Translations under genes and position numbers: made by a program
From: Lachnospiraceae bacterium NK4A179
GTDB lineage: Bacteria > Bacillota > Clostridia > Lachnospirales > Lachnospiraceae
DNA: 64,000 bases
Direction: 5' to 3'
NCBI GenBank assembly: GCA_000421045.1
Contig: ATWC01000007.1
Location: 1 to 64,000 of the forward strand
Part shown: piece after piece, positions 7,802 through 61,900 of the stretch
Layout of the letters: the number at the start of each line of letters is the position of its first letter
Numbering within the stretch: the stretch's first letter is position 1
The notes under the pieces: generated by a model
The model's input: only the letters and a program-made list of their open reading frames with translations
The model's database searches: none
What the model was told of the DNA's origin: nothing

Positions 7802-8200
7802 TTACTTTAAGCAGTTTATACGTGCTATAGCTCTCTGAAGAGCGATAGTTGCTCTGTCGATATCAATACCATCGCCCTTTGATGCTATACGCTCTCTTGC
7901 TCTTTCCTCAGCGGACTGAGCTCGTTCAACATCGATCTCGTCAGGCCACTCTATATTCTCTGCAAGTATAGTCACCTTATCAGGAAGCACTTCGGCGAAC
8001 CCCGCATGCAGGGCCGCTTTCTTTTCTCCCTCTGCCTCAGTGATGGTAAGAACACCGGGTCTGATGATAACGGTGATCGGCATATGATTCTTATATATAC
8101 CGATACCGCCTTCAGTTGTATTGAATTCAGCCATCACCACATCGCCTTCATAGAATATCTTATCGGGAGTGATGATCCTTAATGCGAATGTATCTGCCAT
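7802..8200 (-). CDS. atpC: F1 ATP synthase epsilon subunit
   Basis: This 132-residue protein has the usual N-terminal beta-sandwich (LRIITPDKIFYEGDV, GGIGIYKNHMP) followed by the C-terminal helical hairpin (SAEERARERIA). Epsilon connects the rotor to gamma and inhibits ATP hydrolysis in the cytoplasm. It is the last gene of the operon, 14 bases after atpD, and is followed by a strong terminator. Length is normal. Confidence 0.97.
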   Translation of the reverse strand: MADTFALRIITPDKIFYEGDVVMAEFNTTEGGIGIYKNHMPITVIIRPGVLTITEAEGEKKAALHAGFAEVLPDKVTILAENIEWPDEIDVERAQSAEERARERIASKGDGIDIDRATIALQRAIARINCLK

Positions 8201-8214
8201 AATCTGTCTTTCTC

Positions 8215-9618
<1,404 letters not shown>

Positions 9619-9658
9619 TTATCCTTTCGCAAATAATTACTTTTGACCTTTACGTCAA

Positions 9659-10558: not shown

Positions 10559-10599
10559 AGTTAATTAACTCCCGGTTCTTTATCCTTTAAAGAATCCCG

Positions 10600-12105: not shown

Positions 12106-12133
12106 GGTTAATCAAACGCCTTTCTAAATATTT

Positions 12134-12682
12134 TCAGACTGCCTGAGAATCCAGAAGGGATCTCTTAAGGCTGTCCAGTTTATAGCTGATGCTGGAGTTA
12201 ACAACACGGTCTCCGATCCTGATCACCATTCCGCCGATCAGACTCTCATCCGTTTCATAATGCATCTCCATTTTTTTGTATTTAGCGGTCTCAAGAAGTT
12301 TCTTCTCAACAGCAGCCTTCTGTGCATCAGAAAGCGGCAGTGCAGATGAAACCCAGGCAATACCGATTCCCTTGTATTCCTTCACTCTTCCGAAGAAGAA
12401 TTCCAGAACCTTATCCAGATCCTTATATCTGTCATTTGCAAGGAGCAGTTTAAGGAATCCTTCCAGCTCACGGGAGATGCGGCCGTCAAACACTTCTTCA
12501 AGAACCTTTTCCTTCTCCTCACTGGTAATCTTAGGATGATTCATCAGTGTATCGAAATCAGGATTCTCTTTCAGTATGCCTGAAAGCGAAAGTGCTTCTT
12601 CGTAAAGAGCATCCACTTTATTCTCTTCTACCGCAAGGGAAAACAGTGCTTCCCCATAGGTGTTAGCGACTAGCTTTGCCAT
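12134..12682 (-). CDS. atpH: F1 ATP synthase delta subunit
   Basis: The 182-residue peripheral-stalk subunit starts AxxYGEALFSLA, the usual delta N-terminus. It ends with the conserved beta-rich VDESLIGGMVIRIGD-like segment (here TDESLIGGMVIRIGD). It overlaps the end of atpF by 13 bases, which suggests coupled translation. It joins F1 to the b-subunit stator. Confidence 0.95.
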   Translation of the reverse strand: MAKLVANTYGEALFSLAVEENKVDALYEEALSLSGILKENPDFDTLMNHPKITSEEKEKVLEEVFDGRISRELEGFLKLLLANDRYKDLDKVLEFFFGRVKEYKGIGIAWVSSALPLSDAQKAAVEKKLLETAKYKKMEMHYETDESLIGGMVIRIGDRVVNSSISYKLDSLKRSLLDSQAV

Positions 12683-13242
12683 GTAGCTTCCCCTATTTCT
12701 TTAAGGGTGTCCTCAACGAGGGCATCCTGCACCGTTGTGTCAATATTTCCCTTTACGACCTTTGCAGCCATAAGGGAAGCGATGCTTATCATCTCTTTCT
12801 TAACTTCATCGCCGGCTTTCTTCTTTTCAAGCTCTGCCTCGGCATTGGCGCGTTCAATAATGTCCGCAGCCTCTTTCTTGGCATCAGCGACTATCCTGTC
12901 TTCATTTGCAAGGGCCCTCTTGCGTGCCTCTGCAAGTATATGCTCAACTTCGGCATCGGCATCCTTAAGCTTTGCTTCATACTCAGCCTTAAGTTTTGCC
13001 GCTTCCTCTTTGTCTTTTGCTGCCTGCTCGATATCATTCTTTATGCGCTCGCTTCGTCCGGAAAGAACCTTGCGTGCAGGATTGAACAGATTGTATGACA
13101 GCACTAAGAACAGTGTAAATACTGCGAGGAGTGTCAGCCCTGAATCAAAGAGCAGCTGAAGATCAAGACCGAAAAGTCTTGTATATCCTTCTTCTGCCAC
13201 AGGGGCAGCCGATAAAAGCAGATATGTTGCTGCAGTATTCAA
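12670..13242 (-). CDS. atpF: Fo ATP synthase subunit b
   Basis: This 190-residue protein has one membrane helix (about 29-51, LLFDSGLTLLAVFTLFLVLS) and a long charged, alanine-rich coiled coil, the classic stator stalk. Residues 1-25 before the membrane helix are a little longer than in many homologues. It is placed between atpE and atpH. Confidence 0.96.
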   Translation of the reverse strand: MNTAATYLLLSAAPVAEEGYTRLFGLDLQLLFDSGLTLLAVFTLFLVLSYNLFNPARKVLSGRSERIKNDIEQAAKDKEEAAKLKAEYEAKLKDADAEVEHILAEARKRALANEDRIVADAKKEAADIIERANAEAELEKKKAGDEVKKEMISIASLMAAKVVKGNIDTTVQDALVEDTLKEIGEATWQS

Positions 13243-47148: not shown

Positions 47149-48282
47149 TCAGTTCAGAATCTCATGTACTCTTTCCTGTACCATTTTGCTGATTAGTTTT
47201 AATCTATGCGATGAATAATTATATGCACCCGTTTTTTGCAGGTTAAATGTTAGCATCTTTCTCATTTTTACTTTTAATCTGTTGTCAATTACCTTCTTTG
47301 CTTCCTCTATATAATCTTCATAAAAGCTGGGAAGCAATGTACCGGCATATTCTTTAAGATGTTTCTCATCTGCCCAGTTTTCTTCTCCTGCTAGATTAAA
47401 CAGTGAATTTCCATGGTCAAACAGTGGTGCCGGAGCTATTATCTTATTTGTTTTACTATCAACAAGCACTCCGAAATTGCCAAAGTGCCTGTCAGTATTG
47501 TAGATCACTGCATCTAACACTATCATATCGTTAAGTGCATCTACATATTCAGATCCAAGATTCTCATAATACTCTCGTACTGCCCTCATCCCACCTGTTT
47601 TTACTACCCGACCTATAGGAACAAAAGCTATATCTTTACTCGTAAACAATTCACATGCAGAGCACAATTGCTTCTTCCATTTTGAAACCTTGTAAGGAAC
47701 AACATTCATACCCAAGGCTGTCCCTATCTCATATGCATATAGTTCCGAATACGGCTCATTTCCAGTATTGGATGCCCCCGATGTAGCACCCTTATAAAGA
47801 TAAACCTTTCCATTAATTCTTCTCCAACATTTGGGGAGCATGCCATTTGTCGTAAACTCCGGAGAAGATGCCAATGAAGATCTGGCACTGCTCCCATATC
47901 CGGTAAAAGCAATCATGGCAAGCACACGGCTGAAATTATTCTCATAGAGATTATTATCTCCAAATGTTCCTGCAAATCCTTCTTCCACTACCCAGTATGA
48001 ATCATTTAAGGATAAACCTCTGCAAACCGAGATAACACCCATAGGCCTGTTGGCATTAAGACCACACTTTGCAAGGAAAGCATTAACATAGGCTCGGTTT
48101 TTGGGAATAGTCCTGTTCTTCAGCCAAGAAGCAATGCCTTTGTCGCTTAGTTCCATGCCCAAAGGAAGTAGATGCTTTTTCTTTTCATTTATCCATGTAA
48201 TCTGCAACACAGGATCAGACAAGTTCTCAATGATTTTAAATTTAATTAATTCTACGTCAAATAGCTTTAAAATATATTCCAT
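47149..48282 (-). CDS. HipA-like kinase-fold protein
   Basis: The ATG at 48282 follows GGGAGA at seven bases and gives 377 residues; an in-frame ATG at 48297 is also possible. The catalytic signature VLDAVIYNTDRHFGNFG (N-x-DRH-x-x-N) and metal motif LFDHGNSL are typical of the HipA C-terminal kinase domain, and KGATSG resembles the ATP loop. The N-terminal 120 residues are not HipA_N. No HipB antitoxin lies nearby; the gene directly follows a fic gene and has AAAGGAG just after the fic stop. Confidence 0.8.
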   Translation of the reverse strand: MEYILKLFDVELIKFKIIENLSDPVLQITWINEKKKHLLPLGMELSDKGIASWLKNRTIPKNRAYVNAFLAKCGLNANRPMGVISVCRGLSLNDSYWVVEEGFAGTFGDNNLYENNFSRVLAMIAFTGYGSSARSSLASSPEFTTNGMLPKCWRRINGKVYLYKGATSGASNTGNEPYSELYAYEIGTALGMNVVPYKVSKWKKQLCSACELFTSKDIAFVPIGRVVKTGGMRAVREYYENLGSEYVDALNDMIVLDAVIYNTDRHFGNFGVLVDSKTNKIIAPAPLFDHGNSLFNLAGEENWADEKHLKEYAGTLLPSFYEDYIEEAKKVIDNRLKVKMRKMLTFNLQKTGAYNYSSHRLKLISKMVQERVHEILN

Positions 48283-48316
48283 ATAAGATTCTCCCATTCA
48301 AAGCCATTATTCTCCT

Positions 48317-49375
48317 TTATTCCTTATCTCTGTTCCAAACGTATTTTGTATATCGACCGCCACCGATCTTTATAATGCTTTCTGATGACAAAAGTTCTGA
48401 CAGTGCCCTCTCAACAGTTATGCGGCTTATGTCAGGGCATTTCTCCATAATCTGCGACTTCGTGATTTCGCCATAAGTATTTTTAATCAGTTCAGCCACA
48501 CGCTCCGGCTTTGAAAGGCCACTGGTAACTAAAGTCTCTATCCTGTCAGAGAAATCTCTGTATGCCGCAACAACAACACCGAGCGTATACTGTACAAACG
48601 GAACGTAATTGTTCTCTTCCTCATGCCAGTTAAGGGAGCTTTCCTGCAGGCACTCATAATATGATGTTTTAGTCTTTTCAATCAGATGCTCGATACTGAT
48701 GTACTTTCCTACGATGTATCCGGCTCTGTACAGCATCAGCAGCGTGAGCAGTCTGCTCATTCTTCCGTTGCCGTCATTAAACGGATGGATGCAAAGGAAA
48801 TCCAATATAAACATCGGTATCAAAAGCAGTGGATCTATTGTTCCGGTTCCGAGAGCTTTATCAAATTCATTACAAATATTCTCGATTGCCTCAGGCGTTT
48901 CCCATGCAGGAACCGGTCTGAATCTTACGAATTTGTTGCCCTGTTCATCCTCTTCCTCAATGATATTATCCGCTGCTTTATACTTTCCGCCGATATCATA
49001 TCCTTCAAACTTATATAAATCTCTGTGAAGCTGAAGGATCATATTCGGTCTTATCGAGATGTAATCATGACTCTCATGGATTATATTAAGTACATCCCTG
49101 TATCCGGCAATCTCTCGCTCGTTTCTCGTCTTAGGCGTAGTCTTATCTTTAACTAGCGCTTTCAGTCTTGCATCAGAAGTATAGATACCCTCAATCTTAT
49201 TGGATGCTTCGGTACTCTGAATCTTCGCAATCTCAACAAGTTGCGTCAACGAATCTGCCTTCGCTTCTATAAAAAGTGACTGCTCGCCTTTATACTCATG
49301 GATCTGCGTAAGCAGTGCCACTATTTCCGGTGTCAGTAGTTTTTCCCATTTTTTACTGTAATCAAAATTTCTCAT
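48317..49375 (-). CDS. Fic family AMP-transferase-type protein, self-inhibited class
   Basis: The 352-residue protein has the active-site motif HPFNDGNGRMSRLL complete, predicting nucleotidyl transfer to target hydroxyls. Near residue 60, STEASNKIEGI contains SNKIEG, which matches the inhibitory-helix motif [S/T]xxxE[G/N] seen N-terminal to the Fic core in class II proteins. A C-terminal winged helix (VAELIKNTYGEITKSQIMEKC, TVERALSELLSSESII) could bind DNA and autoregulate. GAGGATAT precedes the ATG. Confidence 0.9.
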   Translation of the reverse strand: MRNFDYSKKWEKLLTPEIVALLTQIHEYKGEQSLFIEAKADSLTQLVEIAKIQSTEASNKIEGIYTSDARLKALVKDKTTPKTRNEREIAGYRDVLNIIHESHDYISIRPNMILQLHRDLYKFEGYDIGGKYKAADNIIEEEDEQGNKFVRFRPVPAWETPEAIENICNEFDKALGTGTIDPLLLIPMFILDFLCIHPFNDGNGRMSRLLTLLMLYRAGYIVGKYISIEHLIEKTKTSYYECLQESSLNWHEEENNYVPFVQYTLGVVVAAYRDFSDRIETLVTSGLSKPERVAELIKNTYGEITKSQIMEKCPDISRITVERALSELLSSESIIKIGGGRYTKYVWNRDKE

Positions 49376-49850: not shown

Positions 49851-50495
49851 TCAGGCTCCGGCTTGAAATACTGCTTCGCCAGGCGTTGTGCCTGTTACTG
49901 CCTCCTGGTATCCTCCAGATCCGAAGCTGTATGACACAATGCTATCATCATCTTCCTCTGCATCCTCCTTAAAGGGATCCTCCATCGGACTATCGGATTT
50001 CTTGGCCTTTTTTAAATCTTCTTCCGTATCAGGCAGTTTCTGATATGCCTCGGAATCTCTGAACTGCTGACTTACGTTCTGTACGGCGGCAATCATCGCA
50101 TCTCTTGCAGGATCCTTGTCACTGATGGATGTCATGGCATTGCTCATAACCTGCTGTGCCTCTTCTTTCGTTCGGCAGTGCTTTAATTGCTCTTTCAAAG
50201 CCTCTCTGCGCTGCTGAACCCTGACAACCTGTTGATAGATATACGGATTGGTTCTGCGGATATAAGCCATTTCCTTCGCAGATAGCTTGGCCCCACTCTT
50301 TATCTTCTGCTGGATCTTATTTTCAAATGCCTGACGCTCCTCTTCAGAGTCAAAATCATCACCATGCATCTTATCCATGATCCCCTTTACAAATTCAGCT
50401 TTAATCTGTGCCAGACTCTTTTTCTCAGATGGTTTAGTTTCCGGATTTCCGTTGATCAGATCTATATTATTAATCCTTTGAAGAATTAATGTCAT
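49851..50495 (-). CDS. Protein of unknown function in the LytTR-regulated locus, 214 residues
   Basis: Not recognised. There is no signal peptide or membrane segment. Residues 20-150 are charged and helical (AQIKAEFVKGIMDKM, RRTNPYIYQQVVRVQQRREALKEQL). Residues 165-190 are acidic (EDDDS) and the tail is Gly/Ser/Ala-rich. GGAGG lies before the ATG. It is the last gene of the locus that begins with the GHKL/LytTR pair. Its helical, alanine/glutamine-rich make-up recalls small chaperone or assembly proteins, but that is a guess. Confidence 0.7.
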   Translation of the reverse strand: MTLILQRINNIDLINGNPETKPSEKKSLAQIKAEFVKGIMDKMHGDDFDSEEERQAFENKIQQKIKSGAKLSAKEMAYIRRTNPYIYQQVVRVQQRREALKEQLKHCRTKEEAQQVMSNAMTSISDKDPARDAMIAAVQNVSQQFRDSEAYQKLPDTEEDLKKAKKSDSPMEDPFKEDAEEDDDSIVSYSFGSGGYQEAVTGTTPGEAVFQAGA

Positions 50496-50519
50496 AACTC
50501 TGCCTCCGCTGTCATTTCC

Positions 50520-50792
50520 TCAACTATCCTTATATCCAACAACCGCAATCAGTTCACTACCTCTCATGATGTAAACAACTTTCTTGTTTTCAGAAAACAG
50601 TTCATCTCTGCACATTCAGTCGTTTTCCGAAAGATCAGCAGGCTCCTCTGACTTAACATCAAACTCTGCGTCATTTATTCCCTGCACAAGATTTGCAATT
50701 ACAATCTCCTCAATCTTACCAACAGGTAGTTCCTTTTCCCTCAGTTTAGAAAAATATCAAAAATCTTCATACTGCTCTCTACTCAAATACGC
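50520..50792 (-). pseudogene. Two coding-like relics between the 782- and 214-residue genes
   Basis: After the TAG of the 782-residue gene (50793) the same frame continues with coding-like sequence: AYLSREQYEDF, TGA, then YFSKLREKELPVGKIEEIV on to a stop at 50616. It has no start of its own. Its TGA is abutted by an ATG (50615) that begins a 31-residue frame starting MCRDELFSENKK and ending at 50520. Both look like decayed gene ends or small coupled genes; I cannot name them. Confidence 0.4.
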
Positions 50793-53141
50793 CTATGCAT
50801 AACCCTTGACCCTTCTGTCTCTCATATACCTTGCCGCCATGCCAACATACGAATCATACGTCGATATTCCATTGGATGCCATTTCCTCCATTCGGTTCAA
50901 CGCCATGCTCTCCATATCCTGTGCCGCCTTAGCAGTGCGTAATACCGTCTGATCATCCGTCTTAAGTTTCTTAGTCCAGTTTTTCTCATGGTCGATACCC
51001 GGATCTTCTTCCATCGTTTCTGACGTCTCTTCTCCCTCAGAATCATCTCCACCATCAAACCCACTGGCAGCCACCGATAAAGCGGCTTCCTGTGCAGCTG
51101 CGCTTCTCATTTCAGAATCTGCCTCCAATGCCGCCTTCCGGGCTGCTTCCATCTGTTTCTTTACTCTCTCCCGGATATCTTCTTTATATGCATCAATATA
51201 ATTATCAACTCCGGATAAAAGCTTGTCCCAGTCATCATCAGACATACTGCGCCAATCATCACCTTCTTTAAGTTCTTCTGCCGTCAGTTTATTCTGCTCA
51301 TCAAACATTTTTAAGAGGTCTGCTGCACTGAGTGTTTCTCCCGACTTCGGATTTTCCATGTATGTCTTGGATTTAGCCAATGCGCCGGTCCAGTTTCTTT
51401 TTTCATTCATGATATTCTCTAAAGAGCCAAAATTCATCCCATCACCAGGAGAGATTACTTTTTTGATAGCACTCCAACTTCCCCACGTATGACCGGATCC
51501 TTCGCCCATGGCATCCTTATACTGACAGTATGCGAACATCTCGACAGCTGTTGCATTCCTGGGATTGAACTCAGACAGATTTACATCCACTGATTCATAG
51601 TTGCCGCCACCTGTTGCAAGCTTTACACGCACTATCACATCATCAGTTGAGCCGGTAGATACCAAAGATGCTTTCATTCCGTATCCCATATTCCCGGCAA
51701 GGGCCATTCCAAATCCGGGAAGGGGATTTTCTTCATAAGAACTGCCAGTTTTCGTTATGCTGTTTTCTGTCGGCGATTCTATGCCTACGCCGTTTGCCAT
51801 TGCTGCTTTCTGGTTTGCCTCGATTTTTGCATTCCAGGCATCCCACATTTCCTGCTCCGTAAATACCTTGCCGATAAAATGAGTGTTGTTGATATATTCA
51901 GCATAAGGCTCAGTCAGAACTTCTCCCAGCTTCTTCCCCTCCTGTAAGGCCTTCTCAACATTTATCTTTCCGTTATCTGTGGAATCGTAATATGCACGGA
52001 ATCCGTCAATATCAAAATCCTCCTTCATAAAATCCTTCCAAAACTTCTCCTGTGGAGCGAATGTTAGATTCTGATCCTTCGAAAAACTCTTTAAGAACTC
52101 CTGAACCTTTTCATAACTGTCCGGGGAATCATAAGATAGACTCCATAAATCCCTCTGCGATATCTTTCCACCAACATCTGATATTTCCCGACATGAAATC
52201 CCCTGATCCGTATAGGCTGTAATGTATTTGACATTCACAGGAACAATCTCTCCGGTATCAGGATCCGTATACTGATTGTGTTTGGAAACAATTGTTTCAG
52301 ATACCGGATCGGTTGTAGTACCGGAAAAAGTGTATCTGTTTCTGAGCGCACTTATCTTTTCCTGAGTCTCGACATCATCAATATCCGCAAATAAGAGTGA
52401 AAATGCCTCATCGGAAAACCCGTTCCCCCTCATTGCTCTGTCGAAAAAGGTATTTATGGTTTCAAATAATTTATTTGCGAGATCTGCAAGGGAGGGAGTC
52501 ACTTCCCGGTACTCCTCTGCATAATCTTTAAGAAGAGGCACCCTGTCACCTTTATCAAAAATGCTGTTAAAATAGCTTGTATCAGTAAATACCATCTTTG
52601 ACATCAGGTCGGCTGTCTCGTCGGTCTGTCTGATATACATACAAAGCGCAGAAAGCTCAGGAAAATCCATCATTTTCGGATCAAGATTATAAGGATCAAA
52701 CTCTTCCTCTATCTCCTGTCCGTTCTCGTCAATGCCTTTAATCGTATATGTCTTATCTTTTCCGTCAGAATTTATATAAATGCTAAAAGATTTCTCTTCT
52801 TCCTGATAGGAAAATACCGTCTGTCCATCACTATCATGAGCAAGCATTTCCTTGGTCTTTATGTTCGCAGTGATGCATCTGGTATATGCCTTTGATTCAC
52901 CATATGCTCCTATAGGTGACACCCCTTGAATACTTCCGAATTGCAGTTCAGAACTGATATCACTATCAACGCTTGTTCTAGTCCCCTCTTCGGTCTGTGA
53001 TACGCCGGAATCTTCTCTATGAAATGCCAGCATCTGATTCATAAAACTCCCGCCGTTCCCGAAATCATAGTTTCCGGATCCGTTCCTCACAGAATAATAC
53101 ATGCTCCTATTCTGATACGTTGCTAATCCTGCTATAGACAT
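50793..53141 (-). CDS. Large protein of unknown function in the LytTR-regulated locus, 782 residues
   Basis: The start MSIAGLATYQNRSMYYS at 53141 is set by AAGGAG six bases before it; the frame extends further upstream without support. There is no classical signal peptide and no membrane segment. A Ser/Gly/Asn-rich head is followed by a long mixed domain (ISREL-type beta segments, DPxTGEIVPVNVKYIT), and an alanine/glutamate coiled coil lies near 640-690. I do not recognise the family. The short, signal-less, Asn/Ser/Tyr-rich N-terminus resembles those of the 418- and 243-residue neighbours. Confidence 0.75.
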   Translation of the reverse strand: MSIAGLATYQNRSMYYSVRNGSGNYDFGNGGSFMNQMLAFHREDSGVSQTEEGTRTSVDSDISSELQFGSIQGVSPIGAYGESKAYTRCITANIKTKEMLAHDSDGQTVFSYQEEEKSFSIYINSDGKDKTYTIKGIDENGQEIEEEFDPYNLDPKMMDFPELSALCMYIRQTDETADLMSKMVFTDTSYFNSIFDKGDRVPLLKDYAEEYREVTPSLADLANKLFETINTFFDRAMRGNGFSDEAFSLLFADIDDVETQEKISALRNRYTFSGTTTDPVSETIVSKHNQYTDPDTGEIVPVNVKYITAYTDQGISCREISDVGGKISQRDLWSLSYDSPDSYEKVQEFLKSFSKDQNLTFAPQEKFWKDFMKEDFDIDGFRAYYDSTDNGKINVEKALQEGKKLGEVLTEPYAEYINNTHFIGKVFTEQEMWDAWNAKIEANQKAAMANGVGIESPTENSITKTGSSYEENPLPGFGMALAGNMGYGMKASLVSTGSTDDVIVRVKLATGGGNYESVDVNLSEFNPRNATAVEMFAYCQYKDAMGEGSGHTWGSWSAIKKVISPGDGMNFGSLENIMNEKRNWTGALAKSKTYMENPKSGETLSAADLLKMFDEQNKLTAEELKEGDDWRSMSDDDWDKLLSGVDNYIDAYKEDIRERVKKQMEAARKAALEADSEMRSAAAQEAALSVAASGFDGGDDSEGEETSETMEEDPGIDHEKNWTKKLKTDDQTVLRTAKAAQDMESMALNRMEEMASNGISTYDSYVGMAARYMRDRRVKGYA

Positions 53142-53156
53142 ATGTTTCTCCTTTCT

Positions 53157-53182
53157 GCGGTTCGTCTGTCGGTCAGAACCGC
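53157..53182. promoter_or_regulatory. Inverted GCGGTTC repeat before the 782-residue gene
   Basis: GCGGTTC (53157-53163) faces GAACCGC (53176-53182) with a 12-base spacer. The half-site equals the core of the tandem boxes elsewhere in the locus, but here it is inverted. It lies a few bases before the ribosome site, between this gene and the LytTR gene. Confidence 0.45.
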
Positions 53183-53218
53183 TCCGCTCCCCTTGAAAGG
53201 ACCGAGCGATTGTATTTC

Positions 53219-53551
53219 TCATTTCGTGTATTCACGAAATAACTTCTTTACCATCTGATATCTTGAACGGGGAATCGTGAACACTTCCCCGGTTGATATT
53301 GTCATCAAATAGTTTGATACTTCTGTTACATACCGCATATTCACCAAACAACTCCGATGACATCTTATAAATCCATACGGTAAGAGAACCCTCTCGATCT
53401 CATCAAGTCTTTGGTATATCCTGAATTGCATCTCTTCCTGTCCTTCAATAACAAAAAACACATTCCTGTGTCCCTCCGTCTGCACATATATAATGCTCTC
53501 AGAATCCAAACTTCTCTCACCGCCCACAAATGGGAACGAAACCAAACACAT
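53219..53551 (-). CDS. Single-domain LytTR DNA-binding protein
   Basis: The 110-residue LytTR domain lacks a receiver. It has ESIIYVQTEGHRNVFFVIEG, then LLPYGFIRCHRSCLVNMRYV, which is the conserved F-x-R-x-H-R/K-S-x-L-V/I-N core, and TIPRSRYQMVKKLFREY. The start is the ATG at 53551 or the adjacent GTG at 53554 after AAGGGG. It probably binds the same type of sites as the full-length regulator at 57883-58623. It could act as a constitutive activator or a competitor. Confidence 0.85.
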   Translation of the reverse strand: MCLVSFPFVGGERSLDSESIIYVQTEGHRNVFFVIEGQEEMQFRIYQRLDEIERVLLPYGFIRCHRSCLVNMRYVTEVSNYLMTISTGEVFTIPRSRYQMVKKLFREYTK

Positions 53552-53574
53552 CACCCCTTCTGTTCTTTTTTAAG

Positions 53575-53614
53575 CAAAAAGCATCTTCTTCAATCAATCC
53601 ATTGAAAAAGATGC
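53575..53614 (-). terminator. Terminator-like hairpin upstream of the single-domain LytTR gene
   Basis: GCATCTT-TTCAAT faces ATTGAA-AAGATGC (53581-53614). On the minus strand the stem is followed by GCTTTTTG. It lies between a LytTR-type promoter site (53686-53715) and the gene it would serve, so it may end a short leader RNA. Confidence 0.6.
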
Positions 53615-53646
53615 CATCCATAGCCGATATTATTTATGCTGATATA

Positions 53647-53715
53647 GATATCGGAATCAATATATGCATTTATAACCGCAATGTCACGAACAGACGGTTT
53701 GATGTAATAAATGGA
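53647..53715 (-). promoter_or_regulatory. LytTR-type promoter element S4
   Basis: On the minus strand boxes TCCATTTAT (53707-53715) and TCTGTTCGT (53686-53694) are separated by 12 bases. GATATC (53647-53652) follows after 33 bases in the place of a -10. The boxes are weaker than S1-S3, but the geometry is the same. Downstream is the hairpin and then the single-domain LytTR gene. Confidence 0.5.
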
Positions 53716-53776
53716 CTGTCATCAGACAAAACCTCCATTTTTCATCTGTTCCTCACTGATTTTTTCAATCCATCTA

Positions 53777-54034
53777 TCAAACATAGATCATCCCAAAATA
53801 GTCTGAATACCAAAGACGATCCGGCGTATTATTTACTGGTATTCCCAATTCAGCCAAGCTTCTGTGAAGTGCATTCCTTTTTTCAATGTGTCCTGTCGTA
53901 TTGCGGCTGTTCCTTTCCAGTTCTATCTGAAGAGTATGACCTTTTCCATCCTCTGTTCTAAGGAGCTTGTTATAAGCGTAACGAAATCCAAATGTATCTT
54001 TTATCTCTGTTGGTTGTAGCATATCCCTGTGCAT
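53777..54034 (-). CDS. Small protein of unknown function, about 85 residues
   Basis: It reads MHRDMLQPTEIKDTFGFRY and ends YSDYFGMIYV. No family is recognised. Support for it being real comes from promoter element S5 just upstream, with GATAAT about 20 bases before the start. AGAAAGG abuts the first ATG, so the second Met (MLQPT) is the likelier start. Its basic middle (ELERNSRNTTGHIEKRNALHR) could contact nucleic acid. Confidence 0.5.
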   Translation of the reverse strand: MHRDMLQPTEIKDTFGFRYAYNKLLRTEDGKGHTLQIELERNSRNTTGHIEKRNALHRSLAELGIPVNNTPDRLWYSDYFGMIYV

Positions 54035-54048
54035 CCTTTCTCTATATA

Positions 54049-54096
54049 ATTATCGAAATCATTATGTGAGATAATTACCACCATGTCACGAATAGA
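54049..54096 (-). promoter_or_regulatory. LytTR-type promoter element S5
   Basis: On the minus strand the box TCTATTCGT (54088-54096) is followed after 33 bases by GATAAT (54049-54054). The next bases GACAT match those after the box in S1 and S4. The first box, expected 12 bases further upstream, is poorly conserved. Confidence 0.5.
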
Positions 54097-54107
54097 CGGT
54101 AAATGTC

Positions 54108-55364
54108 TTAATGAGTCAGCATCTGCATCTCCTGCAACCCCTCATGGTATTCTTTCCTTTCCATAAACTGCTTCTCCTGAAGCTTTTCCATGTATTCCTT
54201 ATGCTCCATCCGTCTTTTATACAGAGCCTCTTCAGCTGCTTTATCATCCGCTCTTTTCTTTCTTGCCTTGGCTTCCCTGCGTCGCCTTTCTTCCTGCCTT
54301 CTGGTAGCATCGCTCTGACTGCTCCTATTACCGGATGTGCTTATTTCCGATGTCATATCATCTCCGCTGACTCTCAGTCCTAATCCGTTTTGTTTCAAAG
54401 ACAGATCCACATGCTGTACTGTACCGGCGGCACCGGTACTCTCCCGTAAAAAAACTCCCGTGGATCTGATCACACCATCTCTATAGCCATCCGCACCACC
54501 CAGGGAAAACTCCGTCTGTTGCTCCCCAAGGAATATGGCTCCGATATCAGCCTCCTTCAGATCCATCAGTATATCTTTGCCGTTTTCGTCTTTACACCAG
54601 ACCTTGAGCTTTGAAAAAACATCATCATTTTCATCTATCCATCCATTGCCATCGCTGTCATATTCACGGAGATCTCCAAACCCATCACCGCTATTTGTTC
54701 CGAACAATTCGCTTCCATCATTGATTTTTCCGTCCCCGTTTTTATCCAATGCAAGAAATCCCGACCCCTTTCCCAGCATGGATATCTCATCTTCTTTTCC
54801 GTCAGAATCGAGATCAAACTTAAATGTCTGATCCCGGACGTCTGCTGTATCAGTTCCTATATTTACGACAAGAGGATCACACAGTGCATCAGCCATGGTT
54901 GGAATGCTCACATTCATATACTCCATATAGCTTCTGCTCATCAGGATATTTATGTTAAAATCAATAGTCCGCCCATCCTCAGTACACGCTCTTCCGCTTG
55001 CATGAAAGCCTGTTTCCTCCGTCTCTGAATATGAATTATGTGCGAGTGTAATTTGCGAGCCATAATTCAACGAGCAAACTAACGGAGTGTTCGCGAGTCT
55101 GAAATTTTCAGATGTGTCGGTTTGGTATTGTCCAATTCCTGCACCGCCCATCATTCCAAAGGATGCAAATCTCTTAAACATTGCAGATAGCGTATTATTT
55201 TGAAAACTTGAATATGTGTCCATCGCCATGGCACTTTCCCTTTTCATGACATTGGCACTTATCATGCCCATAAATCCGTTTGTGTAACCACCGCCAGAAC
55301 GCATCCCGATCTGTGTATAATTTCTACCAGATAACATATTCACTGTACTGTCTGCTATTCTCAT
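54108..55364 (-). CDS. EF-hand-like calcium-loop protein of the LytTR-regulated locus, 418 residues
   Basis: GAGGAGG precedes the ATG. The protein has no signal peptide; its first 60 residues are Met/Gly/Ser-rich (MRIADSTVNMLSGRNYTQIG). The centre carries three DxDxDG-type loops: DLDSDGKEDEI, DKNGDGKINDGSE and DSDGNGWIDENDD. They lie in a module FLALDKNGDGKI-ELFG-GDLREYDSDGNGWID that recurs in large secreted calcium-binding proteins. The tail (350-418) is a strongly charged helix, RRQEERRRREAKARKKR. Likely exported and folded in calcium, or a surface-assembly protein; export route unknown. Confidence 0.75.
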   Translation of the reverse strand: MRIADSTVNMLSGRNYTQIGMRSGGGYTNGFMGMISANVMKRESAMAMDTYSSFQNNTLSAMFKRFASFGMMGGAGIGQYQTDTSENFRLANTPLVCSLNYGSQITLAHNSYSETEETGFHASGRACTEDGRTIDFNINILMSRSYMEYMNVSIPTMADALCDPLVVNIGTDTADVRDQTFKFDLDSDGKEDEISMLGKGSGFLALDKNGDGKINDGSELFGTNSGDGFGDLREYDSDGNGWIDENDDVFSKLKVWCKDENGKDILMDLKEADIGAIFLGEQQTEFSLGGADGYRDGVIRSTGVFLRESTGAAGTVQHVDLSLKQNGLGLRVSGDDMTSEISTSGNRSSQSDATRRQEERRRREAKARKKRADDKAAEEALYKRRMEHKEYMEKLQEKQFMERKEYHEGLQEMQMLTH

Positions 55365-55507
55365 ATTCGTCCTCCTCGCATTATCAGTAATCTAAAAGCG
55401 CAGCCATCAATGGTGTTTTCATCCATGATATACTTCGCTTTCCATAGCACCGTATTGAGTTCTGATTCTTATTTCGGAAATAATTTCAAAATAGAAATCC
55501 AAATGTC

Positions 55508-55537
55508 GCGAACCGCATCTTTTTTGTTGTAAACTGC
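55508..55537 (-). promoter_or_regulatory. LytTR-type tandem site S1
   Basis: On the minus strand GCAGTTTAC (55529-55537) and GCGGTTCGC (55508-55516) are direct repeats separated by 12 bases, a 21-base period placing both on one DNA face. It lies 144 bases before the 418-residue gene. No clean -10 lies at 33 bases; AAGAAT at 55465-55470 is a candidate. Confidence 0.7.
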
Positions 55538-55565
55538 ATCTGGCTTATTCCACTATAGAAAAAGG

Positions 55566-55592
55566 CCGAGCAGAATATCTGCTCAGCCCGTA
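55566..55592 (-). terminator. Terminator after the 243-residue gene
   Basis: The minus strand has GGCTGAGCAGA paired with TCTGCTCGGCC followed by TTTTTC. It separates the 243-residue gene from site S1, making that gene monocistronic. Confidence 0.8.
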
Positions 55593-55641
55593 TATTGAAT
55601 GGTAGTACCACACAATATAAAATTTTAGTTCTTTTGGTCAC

Positions 55642-56373
55642 TTAGATCCAGCCATCAAAACGAGAGCCACCGAAGCCGTAATTTCCAAAATAGGATCCAT
55701 ACCTGCCGTAAAGTCCGGTACTTCCCAATGACAGCTGACGGCTCTGCTGTTCCGCAGCTGAGCTGAGTCTCTGTGCAGCGGATCCTATGATTCTTGCAAA
55801 GGAGCCGTTTGTACCAAGCATTGACTTCACTTTGTCAAAACCGGCATTCTTGAACTCTTCCTCGTTTATGGACATTCTGCCGTCTTTTCCTACAGAAATG
55901 CCTATTCCGCTGAGGCTTTTGGTCATTACTCCGGTCATCCTGGTCATGCTTCCTGCCGCACTGCTCACAGCCGCATTCGTGGTCTTGTTTACCGCATCCA
56001 GTGTTTCATTATAATTTGTCACGAAATCACTGGCTGCCTTATATGCTGCATCCGCATCATATTTTTCCTCACTGGCAAAAAGACCCTCCTTGCCCGTATC
56101 TGTCAGTTTCTTTGCTGCCGCAGATAAATCGGTGCTCTCCTTAGAAACATTTGACAGACCACTCTGCTGTGTGTAGGTATTGTAATTATACTTATTGACA
56201 GCTGAGTTCTTCTGTGTGGAAGCAGTCTGATTATTCCTTCCATAATAGGATTTGAGTGCCTTAGCGTATGATCCGGTTCTCACACTTGAAAGCTGTGAAA
56301 GATTGCTATAAAGAGAACTGCCCGATCCGTACCCAAACAGACTGCCATAATTAAAACTGTTAAACCTGATCAT
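55642..56373 (-). CDS. FliD-like small protein of the LytTR-regulated locus, 243 residues
   Basis: The start MIRFNSFNYGS at 56373 follows AGGAGG at eight bases. The N-terminal 80 residues are Ser/Tyr/Asn/Gly-rich without a signal peptide. Residues about 105-215 resemble the C-terminal helical part of flagellar cap protein FliD: AASDFVTNYNETLDAVN, then LSGIGISVGKDGRMSINEEEFKNAG and VKSMLGTNGSFA. True FliD is about twice as long. It could leave the cell by the flagellar export route, but that is inference. The tail is Gly/Tyr/Phe-rich. Confidence 0.7.
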   Translation of the reverse strand: MIRFNSFNYGSLFGYGSGSSLYSNLSQLSSVRTGSYAKALKSYYGRNNQTASTQKNSAVNKYNYNTYTQQSGLSNVSKESTDLSAAAKKLTDTGKEGLFASEEKYDADAAYKAASDFVTNYNETLDAVNKTTNAAVSSAAGSMTRMTGVMTKSLSGIGISVGKDGRMSINEEEFKNAGFDKVKSMLGTNGSFARIIGSAAQRLSSAAEQQSRQLSLGSTGLYGRYGSYFGNYGFGGSRFDGWI

Positions 56374-56409
56374 CCCTTTCACCTCCTCTCCAAACAGGTA
56401 TCTACTGTG

Positions 56410-56477
56410 ATTATCGTAAGTTTTTTCACTGAATCAAGTGCCTTTACGCGAACCGCATCTATTATGTTGTAAACCGC
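56410..56477 (-). promoter_or_regulatory. LytTR-type promoter element S2
   Basis: On the minus strand GCGGTTTAC (56469-56477) and GCGGTTCGC (56448-56456) are separated by 12 bases. GATAAT (56410-56415) follows after 32 bases. It starts two bases after the stop codon of the kinase gene and precedes the 243-residue gene by about 75 bases. Confidence 0.75.
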
Positions 56478-56479
56478 AC

Positions 56480-57886
56480 TTAAGCGCCCATCAGCATTAT
56501 GTTGAGAATGAAATACAGCTTTCCATCTTTCTCTTCCTGCCTGATCTCAATGTCACCCTTGTATTTCGCAGCGATATTTCTTATATTTTTAAGCCCATAT
56601 CCATGGCCCGATTCATGTTTAGATGTTTCAGGCAGTCCGTCTTCTGTGATATATACTCTTCCCGGAATAATGTTTATGACATTTATGATAAATACCCGCT
56701 CCTTTTGAACCGATTTTATCCTGATCTCCGGATCTGACACTGATGAAGACGCTTCTATGGCATTTTGCAGAGCGTTTGTTAACACCACACTGATATCAAA
56801 TGGATTGATTTCCAGACCATCCGGATATGCAAATGCGCTTTCAAAAGTGATCCCTTTTTTCTCACATTTTTCAGCCGTCTCTGACAACACTACATCCGTA
56901 ACTGCATTCCCTGTTTTTATCATGGGCTGCAGGCTCTCGATATTCTCCCCAAGTTCCCTGATATAATCGGACAGTTCCTTGTTTTTTCCGTCTTCTGCAA
57001 GTCTTTCAATGACCGTCAGATGATTTCCAAAGTCATGGCGGATTCCCCTCATCCTGTCGTATATTTCCTCGATGTGTTCCACATGTCCGACCATATCACC
57101 AACCTGTTTTCTGGCAGAGTCCTTCACATACTCCTCTTCCTGCTTTTCCTTCAGTTTTTGGTAAAGCACGATCACTGCAATGATCGGCACATAAGCCACC
57201 AGGCAAAAAAGAGCCCTGTATGGGTTTGCCGGTATGTTCTCTTTGATGCTTCCGTTTTCCATTCCGTCCATCCATAGAAAAAAATAGGATGACATGATCG
57301 GTTTTACCAAAAGCAGGCTTGCCGCCGGCGCAAGCAGCAGGATCAACTCCTGCCATGTCAGTTCATCACGCTTATACCGGTATGTCTTATGGAGAATCCT
57401 TATGACTGCATATAAGAGCATTAATGCAAGTCCGTACTGAACAGGATTCCATACAAAGAATTCAATGACGGTAGCCTCTATACTATGCTTATACCAATCG
57501 AATTTAAAAACAAGATCCCTCTCCCAGAAGCCTATTTCAGTAAACAGTTCTATAGACAGCCAACTTATCAGACGAAAAACAAAAAACAGAAAGACCTTCT
57601 GCACCGGATTTCTTCTGTCATCTAAAAGCCAGGCAATAAGAATTGCCAGAACTAAAAAAACGATAGTCAGGATCCTGTCCATCTCTTTGCTTGTTCCTGC
57701 ATAGTTACAGACCAGCCACAGCGCATAGTACACTGCCGCAGATGCATAAACGGATCTTTTATTGCACATAAACGGCCTGAGCCAATATATAAGAAGAGCC
57801 ACATTCAGCAGCATATACAGTTCAATAAGAACACGGATATACGCTTCCGCATATGACTGAAAATTATTAACCAGATATTCCATCAT
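56480..57886 (-). CDS. GHKL sensor histidine kinase (AgrC/VirS-like)
   Basis: This 468-residue protein has six or seven N-terminal membrane helices (to about 230), then a coiled linker. The phosphoacceptor region RGIRHDFGNHLTVIERL carries the His. The N-box reads NALQNAIEASS and the G-box HGYGLKNIRNIAAKY. The multi-helix sensor is the type used for peptide pheromones. The start ATG overlaps the response-regulator stop in ATGA. No short peptide precursor gene was identified with confidence. Confidence 0.9.
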   Translation of the reverse strand: MMEYLVNNFQSYAEAYIRVLIELYMLLNVALLIYWLRPFMCNKRSVYASAAVYYALWLVCNYAGTSKEMDRILTIVFLVLAILIAWLLDDRRNPVQKVFLFFVFRLISWLSIELFTEIGFWERDLVFKFDWYKHSIEATVIEFFVWNPVQYGLALMLLYAVIRILHKTYRYKRDELTWQELILLLAPAASLLLVKPIMSSYFFLWMDGMENGSIKENIPANPYRALFCLVAYVPIIAVIVLYQKLKEKQEEEYVKDSARKQVGDMVGHVEHIEEIYDRMRGIRHDFGNHLTVIERLAEDGKNKELSDYIRELGENIESLQPMIKTGNAVTDVVLSETAEKCEKKGITFESAFAYPDGLEINPFDISVVLTNALQNAIEASSSVSDPEIRIKSVQKERVFIINVINIIPGRVYITEDGLPETSKHESGHGYGLKNIRNIAAKYKGDIEIRQEEKDGKLYFILNIMLMGA

Positions 57887-58623
57887 AGGCCTTCACTCCG
57901 TGTGTAATAGGAAAGATAAGCTTTTATAAGATCCTGATATTTTCCCCGGGCAACGGGGATTTCTGCATCACCCACCCGGACGGACTTGGAATCATAGGAT
58001 TTCACATAAGCCAGATTGATCAGATACGCCCTGTGAACCCGAAAGAAATCCTGACCGGAAATGCTTTCCAGTTCCGATATTCTCCCGTTATAGTCAACAT
58101 TATCGTGATCCTTCATATGAAGAATTATCCGTCTGTCAAAGATTTCAGCATACACTATTTCCGACAGTATCACCTTTCTGTTTGAGCCACCTGATCTTAC
58201 GGTTATGACATGGGCGGGATGTTTTTCATCCTCTTTCTCCGTGAGAGCTTTTTCAATATAACGGACTTCATCAGCCTGCTCAATCGCGCGTTTTATTACT
58301 TCCGTAATCCGTTTCTTTCCAAAAGGCTTTACGATATAGTTAAATGCCCCGACCTCAAAAGCCTTGAACACCTCTTCCTCAAGTGCCGTAACGAATACAA
58401 TGACCGTCTTCTTTCCATCCGCACGTATCATCCTTGCAGCATTCATTCCGTCAATCCCCGGCATCTGTATATCCAGGAAAAGTATATCTGCGTCGAATCC
58501 GGGAGCCAGGATCCCCCTTGCATCAGCAAACACTTCGATCTCCATATCTCCAGCTACTTCCCTGACAGACTCCTCAATCAGTTCCCGTATTTTCTTATCA
58601 TCATCACAAATTGCCAGCTTCAT
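57883..58623 (-). CDS. LytTR-family response regulator
   Basis: The start MKLAICDDDKKIREL at 58623 follows AAGGATG; 246 residues. The receiver has DDD near residue 8, phosphoacceptor Asp in ADILFLDIQMPGIDG and KPFGKKR. The LytTR domain has DFFRVHRAYLINLAYVKSYD and VARGKYQDLIKAYL. It should bind direct repeats 21 bases apart; such repeats lie upstream of it and of its neighbours. Longer upstream frame is ignored because it contains the promoter element S3. Confidence 0.92.
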   Translation of the reverse strand: MKLAICDDDKKIRELIEESVREVAGDMEIEVFADARGILAPGFDADILFLDIQMPGIDGMNAARMIRADGKKTVIVFVTALEEEVFKAFEVGAFNYIVKPFGKKRITEVIKRAIEQADEVRYIEKALTEKEDEKHPAHVITVRSGGSNRKVILSEIVYAEIFDRRIILHMKDHDNVDYNGRISELESISGQDFFRVHRAYLINLAYVKSYDSKSVRVGDAEIPVARGKYQDLIKAYLSYYTRSEGL

Positions 58624-58656
58624 ATAACATCCTTCCTTTGGGCATACTATATCTAT

Positions 58657-58725
58657 ATTATCGGTTATTTCAGACGCACTAATGATCACCGATACGTGAA
58701 CCGCAGTTTTTTTGTTGTGAAATGC
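58657..58725 (-). promoter_or_regulatory. LytTR-type promoter element S3 (autoregulatory)
   Basis: On the minus strand GCATTTCAC (58717-58725) and GCGGTTCAC (58696-58704) are separated by 12 bases. GATAAT (58657-58662) follows after 33 bases. It is placed to drive the response regulator and kinase genes. Confidence 0.75.
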
Positions 58726-58781
58726 AAAGCGGGAAGGCTCTGTACCCTCCCGCATTCCATACCTGATATGTTACATCAAAT

Positions 58782-58861: not shown

Positions 58862-58935
58862 ATCGCTGAATTAGCTCTTTCATACGCCCTCAGCAGCAAG
58901 TGCTTCGGGCTGTACTGAATAGTTACCATCAAATA

Positions 58936-59164
58936 CTATTTTAGTCCCGCAATATGCATTCTTGCCCGTTCCAGTATCTTTTCCAAAAAGTCATCCGGTA
59001 TCTTCTCCGTTTGGTATGCTCTCTGTCTGATACTGCTCTTTCCGCTTCTCTCAAGAACTTTTTGCAGCCTATACCCTATATTAATCATCGGGGTACATCC
59101 AGCCTACCACTGACCCGCTATATATTGATATGCTCTTTAGTTCTTTGTCTATTGGATATTTCAT
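58936..59164 (-). pseudogene. Possible frameshifted small gene
   Basis: A 27-residue frame starting MKYPIDKELKSISIYSG (59164) ends in GATGATTAA, where an overlapping ATG (59088) opens a 50-residue frame. That frame starts MINIGYRLQKVLERSGKS and ends IAGLK at 58936. One shifted base would join them. Both read as coding, but no family is recognised and the ribosome site is weak. Confidence 0.35.
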
Positions 59165-59771: not shown

Positions 59772-60014
59772 TTATTCAGGTTGTATTTCTTCAATAGATG
59801 ATAACCGCTCCAAGAGGTCCGGAATATCATATTTCAATGTTTCAAATACGATATTCAAATCAACATTCCCGTAATCATGCACTATACGGTTCCTAAGGCC
59901 AATCAGTTCATTCCATGGTAATTCGTTTTCGCTTTCTCTGTATTCTGTAGAGAGTTTTTTGACATTCTCCGAAATCTGGATCATCCTAAAGTGCGTGGAA
60001 TATTCTAATTCCAT
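59772..60014 (-). CDS. hepT: HepT-like HEPN toxin, shortened at the N-terminus
   Basis: The 80-residue protein has the HEPN RNase motif R-x4-H-x-Y (RNRIVHDYG), followed by DLNIVFETLKYDIPDLLERL as in HepT (DUF86). Typical HepT proteins have about 30-40 more residues before this, so the first helix is missing. The start overlaps the MNT gene by 29 bases. It may be inactive or a minimal form. Confidence 0.8.
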   Translation of the reverse strand: MELEYSTHFRMIQISENVKKLSTEYRESENELPWNELIGLRNRIVHDYGNVDLNIVFETLKYDIPDLLERLSSIEEIQPE

Positions 60015-60465
60015 CCTTTAAAATCTCGCCTGTCAGTTCCAGATTATCCTTAAGCTGCTCAAGACTTAGTACATCAACTTTCTTATGTAGCGCTGTCCTG
60101 AGTTTTTCAACCATGCCGTAAAACTTTAGTCCTTTTACATCTGATGAAATAAGCAAATCGACATCACTGGTTTCCACGGCTTTCCCTTTAGAATAAGAGC
60201 CAAACAAAATGCAATAATGAACCGGATATTCCGATAGAACATCCTCGCATTTTTCTTTTATATAGTCCAACTCCAGGATTCCGTGTTCTTCGTCTATCGG
60301 ATTTATAGCACTAAGCCTATCAATAATATAGTTATATTTTAAAGAGCCGACCTTATCAGCATCGTTTTCATATGATTTATATGATCTCAATGATATACCG
60401 AGTATCTCGGCCGCCTGCTGCTGGGTTAGTCTTTTTTCTTTTCTCAAGTCCTTAACCGTGCTCAT
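59986..60465 (-). CDS. mntA: MntA-like antitoxin: Xre helix-turn-helix fused to a minimal nucleotidyltransferase
   Basis: This 159-residue protein has a helix-turn-helix (about 1-45, LTQQQAAEILGISLRSYKSY) followed by the nucleotidyltransferase motif LFGSYSKGKAVETSDVDLLIS with the catalytic Asp pair. MntA proteins inactivate HepT by AMP transfer. The added DNA-binding domain predicts autoregulation at the inverted repeat upstream. GGAGGTG precedes the ATG. Confidence 0.85.
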   Translation of the reverse strand: MSTVKDLRKEKRLTQQQAAEILGISLRSYKSYENDADKVGSLKYNYIIDRLSAINPIDEEHGILELDYIKEKCEDVLSEYPVHYCILFGSYSKGKAVETSDVDLLISSDVKGLKFYGMVEKLRTALHKKVDVLSLEQLKDNLELTGEILKDGIRIFHAL

Positions 60466-60489
60466 GTTGCACCTCCATTATCATCACGA

Positions 60490-60534
60490 TGCAATATTTG
60501 CACTTTATTGTCAATAAGAAGTGCAAATATTGCA
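60490..60534. promoter_or_regulatory. Operator of the MntA/HepT pair
   Basis: TGCAATATTTGCAC (60490-60503) and GTGCAAATATTGCA (60521-60534) form a perfect 14-base inverted repeat with a 17-base spacer. Each arm is itself nearly palindromic. It is placed 25-70 bases before the antitoxin start. Confidence 0.75.
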
Positions 60535-60604
60535 CTTCTTATTTATCTTTCGTTAATCGTAGTATTTCGGTAGTATTTTTCTCGCAAAGTGCTCACACTT
60601 TTAC

Positions 60605-61900
60605 TTAAGATATACTGAATATGTCCATATTCCTGCCAATCCATTCAGTCATAGCCTTGTTTGTCCTGTACAGTTCCTCGTACTTATCTTTTCCTGCAAA
60701 GAAAGCTGTGGAAACAAATTGATTTGCCAATATCATATACGGAATAGCCTTCTTTTCCGCATCCGTCAATTTTACAACACTGTCATATCCGTACATGATT
60801 TCTTTCATGACTTCAACCCAGGTATGTAACTTATCTTCGTTTTCTTCTTCAAAAGTCTCTGACAGTATGGCTGTTGCCGCATAACATGGATCAAATATCC
60901 GGGCGTTTTCCTCGCTTAGTTCAAAATCAATAAATCCCCACTTGTCCTTCGCCAGGATAATATTGCTCGGATTCGGATCCCTATGAATCACCTGGCGCGG
61001 CAAATCCCTATAGAGATCACAAAACTGCGCCGCATATTTCTCCATAGCTTCCGGATTCATATCGATTTTCCCCTTCAAGGCCGGGACCGCCCAATCCCTG
61101 ACACTCTTTCCTAAGTCCGCTTCATCCGCAATCGTGTCTATCTTTTCAAGCGCAAGATCCAATTGTCCAACGATTTCCCCGATAAAACGTGCTTTTTCTT
61201 TATAAGCGTCAAGATAAAGCCCGCTCGCCATAACTCTCTCGCCTTCAACCTTCCTTGTAAGCGTAAAGTATAGTTCTCCGACTGTAACATATTCTTTTCC
61301 GTCTGTAGTCGGAATAACCGACGGAGCAGTAAGTCCAACACTGTTAAGCGCTTTGGAAATCTGGGTTGCCTTCTTCACCGAGCCAAGATTTGCCGTATAC
61401 TTAATCACCCTATTGCTTCCTACATACTTTGCAGAATCGCTGATCTCTCCGGTTTCCGGAAAGACGATATCCGACACTTTCTCATCCTGAAGCCCCCAAT
61501 TTACCAGCACTTCAGAAATCAACCTATTACTGACCATGATGTGTTCCTCCTGAAAAATATTAATTTTATAAGGTCTTTTTGCCTTATACTCCCGGAGGTA
61601 CTGCGCCGGCGTATATCCGATCTCGCGGATAAAAGCTCTGTAGAAGCCCGAATATGTTTCGAAACCATACTCGTAAACCACTTCGTTTTTCTTTCGTTCC
61701 AAGCCTATCTCATAGATAACATACAAGAGTTTTCTCCTTAAAACGTACTGCATAACCGGTATTCCAACCGCTGATTGGAACAATCTGTAAAAGTGAAAAA
61801 CGGAATATCCCGCAACTTCAGCCAGTTCTTCCGCAGTAATGTCTTCTTTTATGTTGCTATCAACATAATCCAATGTTTTCTGGATCATCTCCCTGACCAT
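60605..61900 (-). CDS. AraC-family regulator fused to an aminoglycoside-phosphotransferase-like domain
   Basis: AAAGGAGG precedes the ATG. Residues 1-105 are two AraC helix-turn-helices (ITAEELAEVAGYSVFHFYRLF, then YGFETYSGFYRAFIREIGYTPAQYL). Residues 120-431 are an APH-fold kinase domain with the catalytic loop VIHRDPNPSNIIL and metal motif FIDFELSEENARIFDP. AraC-effector fusions to kinase-like domains are known but uncommon. The APH domain may sense a small molecule or act on it; its substrate is unknown. Confidence 0.88.
   Translation of the reverse strand: MVREMIQKTLDYVDSNIKEDITAEELAEVAGYSVFHFYRLFQSAVGIPVMQYVLRRKLLYVIYEIGLERKKNEVVYEYGFETYSGFYRAFIREIGYTPAQYLREYKAKRPYKINIFQEEHIMVSNRLISEVLVNWGLQDEKVSDIVFPETGEISDSAKYVGSNRVIKYTANLGSVKKATQISKALNSVGLTAPSVIPTTDGKEYVTVGELYFTLTRKVEGERVMASGLYLDAYKEKARFIGEIVGQLDLALEKIDTIADEADLGKSVRDWAVPALKGKIDMNPEAMEKYAAQFCDLYRDLPRQVIHRDPNPSNIILAKDKWGFIDFELSEENARIFDPCYAATAILSETFEEENEDKLHTWVEVMKEIMYGYDSVVKLTDAEKKAIPYMILANQFVSTAFFAGKDKYEELYRTNKAMTEWIGRNMDIFSIS

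Follow-up and report, generated by a model that had tools for sequence, protein, structure and literature searches.

The stretch of DNA analyzed here, hereafter the window, comprises 64,000 nucleotides of a contig from Lachnospiraceae bacterium NK4A179, whose genome spans 3.2 Mb and whose family is common in guts and rumens. Its minus strand carries a gene set transcribed in the order LytTR response regulator (RR), GHKL sensor kinase, f246, c418, a lone LytTR-domain protein, c809 and c214. The RR (246 aa, 57883–58623, with its start codon, opening MKLAICDDD, at 58623) matches the Pfam families Response_reg (1.8e-19) and LytTR (1.2e-12), and the kinase (468 aa, 56480–57886) matches GHKL (1e-22) and shows five transmembrane-like stretches by hydropathy. 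f246 (55642–56373 for the 243-residue form; its listed start lies three codons further upstream) is a headless FliD-like protein of 243 aa that we term mini-FliD on the basis of a FliD profile match and structural re-alignment. c418 (418 aa, 54108–55364) consists of a strand-rich N-terminal part, an FrpC-type module and a long C-terminal helix. Downstream lie the lone LytTR protein (111 aa, 53219–53554), composed of a LytTR domain only (Pfam LytTR, 1.2e-14); the mosaic protein c809, with 782 residues from an internal ATG (50793–53141) or 809 from an upstream ATG (50793–53222); and c214 (214 aa, 49851–50495). In a Pfam scan, f246, c418, c809 and c214 had no match above any cut-off. The AgrC-like kinase, the LytTR regulator and the single-domain LytTR protein named in the initial annotation are therefore present, and the five genes of unknown function that it listed come to four plus the lone LytTR protein. 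Genes for a HipA-like protein (below the Pfam cut-off) and a Fic protein adjoin the set at 47149–49375, and the region 59986–61900 encodes two further proteins, one of the HTH-nucleotidyltransferase type and one that joins an AraC-type regulator to a phosphotransferase (APH) domain.

The upstream regions of these genes carry paired direct repeats of the LytTR type, all on the minus strand: one kind before RR (58696–58726), mini-FliD (56448–56478) and c418 (55508–55538), and a second kind before the lone LytTR gene (53682–53711). Three such near-identical pairs in 64 kb compare with 0.01 expected. A genome-wide scan with a pattern written from the three window sites, allowing up to three mismatches, returned four matches, namely these three and one with three mismatches; the backward control returned none. 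Comparison of the upstream regions of 19 loci revealed like repeat pairs elsewhere. Under a general form of nine bases, 12 apart, nine bases, which was written after the sites had been seen, and with at most one mismatch, 18 non-duplicate loci with both RR and kinase (three near-duplicates dropped) contained 22 sites distributed over 9 of the 18 loci, 21 of them before regulator or partner genes, against 0 to 2 sites in ten Markov controls. Of the 13 sites in the 28 loci lacking the RR–kinase pair, 8 stand before partner genes; the controls for these loci gave 0 to 1. According to PMC6193735, most LytTR repeats are separated by 12 bp and precede the operon of the regulator itself, and the locus shares with LytTR Regulatory Systems both the 12-bp distance and the site before the regulator's own gene. 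LytTR-type regulation of the set is thus well supported in silico, and the sites common to RR, mini-FliD and c418 favor the initial annotation's proposal that a GHKL/LytTR pair controls it.

The combination of a GHKL kinase with a LytTR regulator is also that of AgrC/AgrA and of other GHKL–LytTR pairs. The locus differs from AgrC/AgrA in that no AgrB-like gene was seen nearby and in that its putative targets are flagellum-linked proteins. Neither AgrB nor a peptide gene was found among 12 genes scanned with Pfam, and both agr models scored far under their NCBIfam cut-offs; control by cell density, which had been proposed earlier, receives no backing from the genes scanned. A terminator-like hairpin lies 3′ of the mini-FliD gene, directly before the c418 site (55563–55589, minus strand), and another directly before the RR site (58729–58753, minus strand); across the region, 14 terminator-like sites were counted against 5.7 expected. 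A further terminator-like hairpin of 15 pairs (53580–53615) separates the lone LytTR gene from the second kind of repeat upstream of it and could be an attenuator. A pattern scan for sigma-D-type promoters gave one match in seven upstream regions, before the lone LytTR gene, and no pattern emerged.

By a simple hydropathy count, f246, c418, c809 and c214 have neither a hydrophobic signal-like start nor a transmembrane-like stretch. The Ser/Asn/Gly/Tyr-rich, signal-less starts ascribed to them earlier were thus recovered as to the lack of a signal for all four; the compositional bias holds for three, with Ser/Asn/Gly/Tyr/Thr/Gln fractions in the first 45 residues of 0.62 (f246), 0.49 (c418) and 0.53 (c809), but not for c214, at only 0.29. 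A shared N-terminal fold was not borne out, as the start of the f246 model is of low confidence and that of the c418 model is a confident strand.

Members of the mini-FliD family carry near their start a motif of consensus IKNGSYxKLLKxYY (VRTGSYAKALKSYY in the window, 56242–56283, minus strand), followed by a FliD_C-like part. In Pfam, f246 scored just below the FliD_C cut-off (23.7 against 25.4 bits) and had no FliD_N match; some relatives pass the FliD_C cut-off (L044, 30.7 bits; L047, 26.5 bits). A profile of 12 rows reached the solved FliD structures 5h5v (3.1e-5) and 5fhy (3.5e-5); taken singly, the matching stretches score weakly (0.011 to 0.062). The AlphaFold2 model, built from 11 rows, has a mean pLDDT of 68, with residues ~66–216 confident and both ends not. 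A Foldseek search with this model returned nothing under 1e-3, and FliD was absent from the 50 rows listed. When the model was re-aligned to the best 811 PDB chains from Foldseek (VIA), rows 1–10 were all FliD, with Z scores of 11.0–14.6, although helical models may reach Z ~13 by chance and only the first FliD row exceeds that value. Since chance scores run this high, the case rests on the grouping of FliD rows at the top, with a best Z of 14.6, together with the sequence profile; the next rows were focal-adhesion domains (Z 10.5). The best row, 5h5v, aligned 143 residues at 2.5 A over the chain range 43–411, and the aligned residues jump over the D2–D3 part. This spacing fits the D1 domain without the D2–D3 head, for which the 243 residues of f246 are too short, and f246 is predicted to fold accordingly. 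The resemblance of one member to the C-terminal part of FliD had been noted from the sequence, and both the profile and the VIA rows bear it out. The likeness is not incidental: f246 looks like a FliD D1 domain, and one member of the set is thereby of a flagellar kind, an outcome that the initial annotation had named as counting against its proposal.

Mini-FliD nevertheless departs from FliD (HAP2), with which it shares the predicted D1 fold and the FliD_C-like stretches, in its length, in the missing FliD_N match and head, and in a gene preceded by a LytTR-type site. A separate FliD is encoded on another contig of the genome, where a 540-residue frame matches FliD_N. In Pseudomonas FliD, oligomerization is reported to be driven by regions outside the head (PMC5072837). 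A weak match of f246 to a PHROG tail-fibre family (1.2e-4) would fit a prophage or tail-like particle as the source of these genes. We consider this origin very improbable: no relative of mini-FliD was found in IMG/VR or in 50,697 phage records, and no phage genes occur among the scanned neighbors, so the prophage components that had been raised as a competing identity find no support in these collections. For c418, a partial match turned up in a single phage record of 18.5 kb that carries no annotation.

The FrpC-type self-processing-like module of c418 spans residues 163–325 (54390–54878, minus strand), with the Asp163-Pro164 codons at 54873–54878. A single-sequence search reached the FrpC entry 6sjw at 1.2e-5, and a profile of 14 relatives reached 6sjw at 6.3e-10 and 6sjx at 2.3e-8; the profile alignments begin at the Asp-Pro site, from the proline in 6sjw and from the Asp in 6sjx. 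The model of c418 (48 rows, mean pLDDT 76.6) had 6sjx as its sole Foldseek match under 1e-3 (3.1e-9), and VIA gave Z scores of 17.3 and 16.9 for two FrpC entries, the next row standing at 5.9. The best alignment covered 156 residues, placing model residues 161–329 on chain residues −2 to 177. The Asp163-Pro164 pair is kept without exception, in 79 of 79 aligned rows (the window and 78 of 79 named loci, one row that starts after the site being left out), in 40 of 40 rows from the window and 39 frames of family and class genomes, and in all 24 rows that reach the site in a 25-row genus alignment, in which some rows are pieces of the same protein. In three named-locus rows the Asp-Pro is followed by residues unlike those of the 75 of 79 rows matched by text search. 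The EF-hand-like calcium-loop residues D207, E219, D236, D238, D244 and D247 are likewise kept in 79 of 79 rows. The calcium loops noticed earlier in one member are confirmed, and the profile and VIA matches to FrpC support the proposed calcium dependence of that member. We regard the homologies of the set and its FrpC module as firm.

The fold, the Asp-Pro at the module start and the calcium loops are shared with the modules of FrpC from Neisseria meningitidis and of ApxIVA. The c418-type proteins differ in that they have 330–550 residues, carry no Pfam-matched RTX repeats and occur in Clostridia; no RTX family appeared among the Pfam matches of c418 up to E 1, and its 418 residues are unlike the large (>1,000 residues) SPM-bearing RTX exoproteins. 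At 1e-10, the family was found in 49 of 393 class genomes, 34 of them outside the Lachnospiraceae and two of the 49 as weak partial matches. Matches to plasmids came from 49 records; among the 40 listed, similarity starts at residues 151–164, near the Asp-Pro, in 33, and the annotation is mostly calcium-binding or hypothetical, with two proteins named frpC. Frames of 1086–3713 residues (G158, G109, G144, G190 and G105) from other genomes of this Gram-positive family also match part of the FrpC-type module.

These features bear on whether the proteins act outside the cell at all. They could instead be cytosolic, as flagellar assembly factors, chaperones or regulators, with the FrpC-like module serving as a non-cutting calcium sensor or scaffold. 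Several of the partner proteins are indeed charged and helical, and at the place of Asp478 of FrpC, a residue whose replacement by alanine slows cleavage, the c418 family lacks conservation and has Thr, Ala, Val or Pro. The equivalence of the invariant c418 residue D320 with FrpC Asp579 was also considered and was not established. Yet without cleavage it would be difficult to account for an Asp-Pro that never varies among the aligned intact rows. The mini-FliD model, with low-confidence ends around a confident core, would moreover resemble axial proteins. Finally, the calcium requirement of the FrpC module, given as ~150 uM in PMC7078468, exceeds cytosolic levels. We therefore hold the cytosolic reading to be doubtful.

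Distribution links the set to the flagellum. FlhA is encoded in 35 of 35 genomes of the window's Lachnospiraceae genus, in which relatives of f246 occur in 31, of c418 in 33, of c214 in 3 and of c809 in 2. Among 298 family genomes that are at least 90% complete, 150 have FlhA, 122 the f246 family and 78 the c418 family. The f246 family was found in 120 of the 150 genomes with FlhA versus 2 of the 148 without, and the c418 family was accompanied by FlhA in 76 of its 78 genomes, the two exceptions being the same two genomes as for f246. Fisher tests gave 2e-51 for f246 and 1e-25 for c418, both ignoring relatedness. Because the 298 genomes are related, the association does not amount to 120 independent events; it is strong nonetheless, with a statistic that ignores kinship. 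Mini-FliD is missing from 30 of the 150 genomes with FlhA. Of these two exceptions, G230 does encode a FliD, and its FlhA probably escaped detection or assembly; in G308, which has mini-FliD and c418, neither FlhA nor FliD_N was found.

Because the set occurs together with flhA, a gene of flagellar export, the non-Sec route suggested in the initial annotation is a likely one. Export could also use another pathway that needs no signal sequence, of a type VII-like or type I-like kind, with the flagellar link reflecting shared ancestry or life style. The relatedness of the genomes leaves room for this, and elsewhere the proteins known to carry FrpC-type modules are type I-secreted (PMC7078468). 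We judge it unlikely, however, given the predicted FliD D1 fold of mini-FliD and its tracking of flhA in 120 of 122 genomes.

Passage through the flagellum is thus the route that we prefer. The analysis itself computed homologies, an invariant Asp-Pro, repeats, joint occurrence with flhA and recurrence in other genera; the sensed signal, binding and export, where the proteins sit on the flagellum, their cleavage and linkage, and the purpose of the set are inferred. A signal would activate the GHKL kinase and, with it, the LytTR regulator; the latter would bind the paired direct repeats before its own gene, the headless FliD and the FrpC-module protein. The signal-less products would leave the cell via the flagellar type III export channel, and mini-FliD would sit at the flagellar tip or junction. 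The FrpC-type protein, inert at low cytosolic calcium, would bind calcium outside; c418 would then cut itself at Asp163-Pro164 and its N-terminal part would be linked to a lysine of a neighboring protein, which would anchor that part on the filament, on another cell or on a surface. The lone LytTR protein, together with the 782-residue and 214-residue proteins, may constitute a second, exchangeable module. We give about even chances to this mechanism as a whole, in which a two-component system switches an accessory kit that belongs to the flagellum, leaves the cell through it and attaches covalently when triggered by calcium. A bolder version, which we offer tentatively and think has a minor chance of being right, is a switchable flagellar specialization of Lachnospiraceae in which a LytTR regulator turns on a headless cap that re-tips or plugs some flagella, signal-less proteins are shipped through these, and one of them is welded to the filament or to some target by a covalent bond that arises from calcium-triggered anhydride chemistry, while the cargo is reshuffled as cassettes along with its promoter sites.

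No description of this gene set was found in the PubMed Central open subset. Flagellinolysins, which are proteolytic flagellins, share the idea of an enzyme activity carried on flagella (PMC7643111); their domains are unrelated to those here. According to PMC7078468, descriptions of clip-and-link chemistry are confined to some of the RTX proteins of Gram-negative bacteria; a short FrpC-type form with an invariant Asp-Pro across Clostridia would widen it, would suggest covalent attachment by commensal flagellates, and would offer new protein-ligation modules comparable to NeissLock (PMC7846742 and PMC12538545). With a regulated headless FliD, the cap proteins would gain a novel form, and one could test directly whether gut-bacterial flagella are switched to tasks other than motility.

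The core of the set recurs. RR, kinase and f246 lie together in five loci of the genus (L043, L045, L047, L049 and L050), and among the 20 best-scoring mini-FliD loci of the family, 8, from eight other genera, have RR and kinase within 6 kb, 2 have a LytTR regulator only and 10 have neither, with matches of 534–713 aa labeled as RR discounted. The co-occurrence check next to LytTR genes that the initial annotation suggested thus gives a mixed answer: the f246 family recurs with kinase and regulator, but not the relatives of c418, which within the genus lie mostly apart from LytTR genes and often far from any. The signal-less partners of RR, kinase and mini-FliD are interchangeable across genera. 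Clustering assigned them to FlxA-like, DUF6033 and unnamed families; Pfam confirmed DUF6033 on L043, L025 and L184 and matched the L050 partner to the FlxA-like family (2.2e-17), and gave no FlxA match for a short L189 protein of the FlxA cluster. L189 holds nearly the whole partner repertoire in one run. The related locus L050 thus shares an FlxA-like protein with Escherichia coli, where the flxA promoter is of the type recognized by the flagellar sigma factor FliA (PMC4183435); the window's set differs in lacking FlxA and in having LytTR-type sites.

Comparison with the relative Lachnospiraceae bacterium UBA4364 suggests how such exchange may proceed. The two genomes align at 81–98% from c418 to c214. 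Upstream of RR, the window retains a 137-bp remnant (58931–59067, minus strand) that matches the last part of a 240-aa UBA4364 gene, its 3′ end, at 100% identity and that, judging from the sequence, is the edge of a swapped cassette, a recombination edge. Between the aligned flanks, UBA4364 has a gene for 335 residues and lacks RR, kinase and mini-FliD, which occupy the corresponding place in the window. The c418 promoter carries the repeat shared with RR and f246 in the window and the lone-LytTR kind in UBA4364; this joint change of site type and cassette supports two regulators with two site types. The modules of c809 recur in different order or singly in its relatives.

A second class of mini-FliD genes is divergent from DUF5717 and DUF5716 genes (Pfam on L024) and lies without LytTR genes. 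This arrangement occurs at L024:7160–7894 and 7989–12802, on C9 of the window's own genome, and in L052 and L053; the DUF5717 and DUF5716 proteins beside these genes may be flagellum-linked too. Mini-FliD proteins of ~390–450 residues match the profile twice and represent tandem duplications within one gene (L145, L113 and family matches such as G242:C23).
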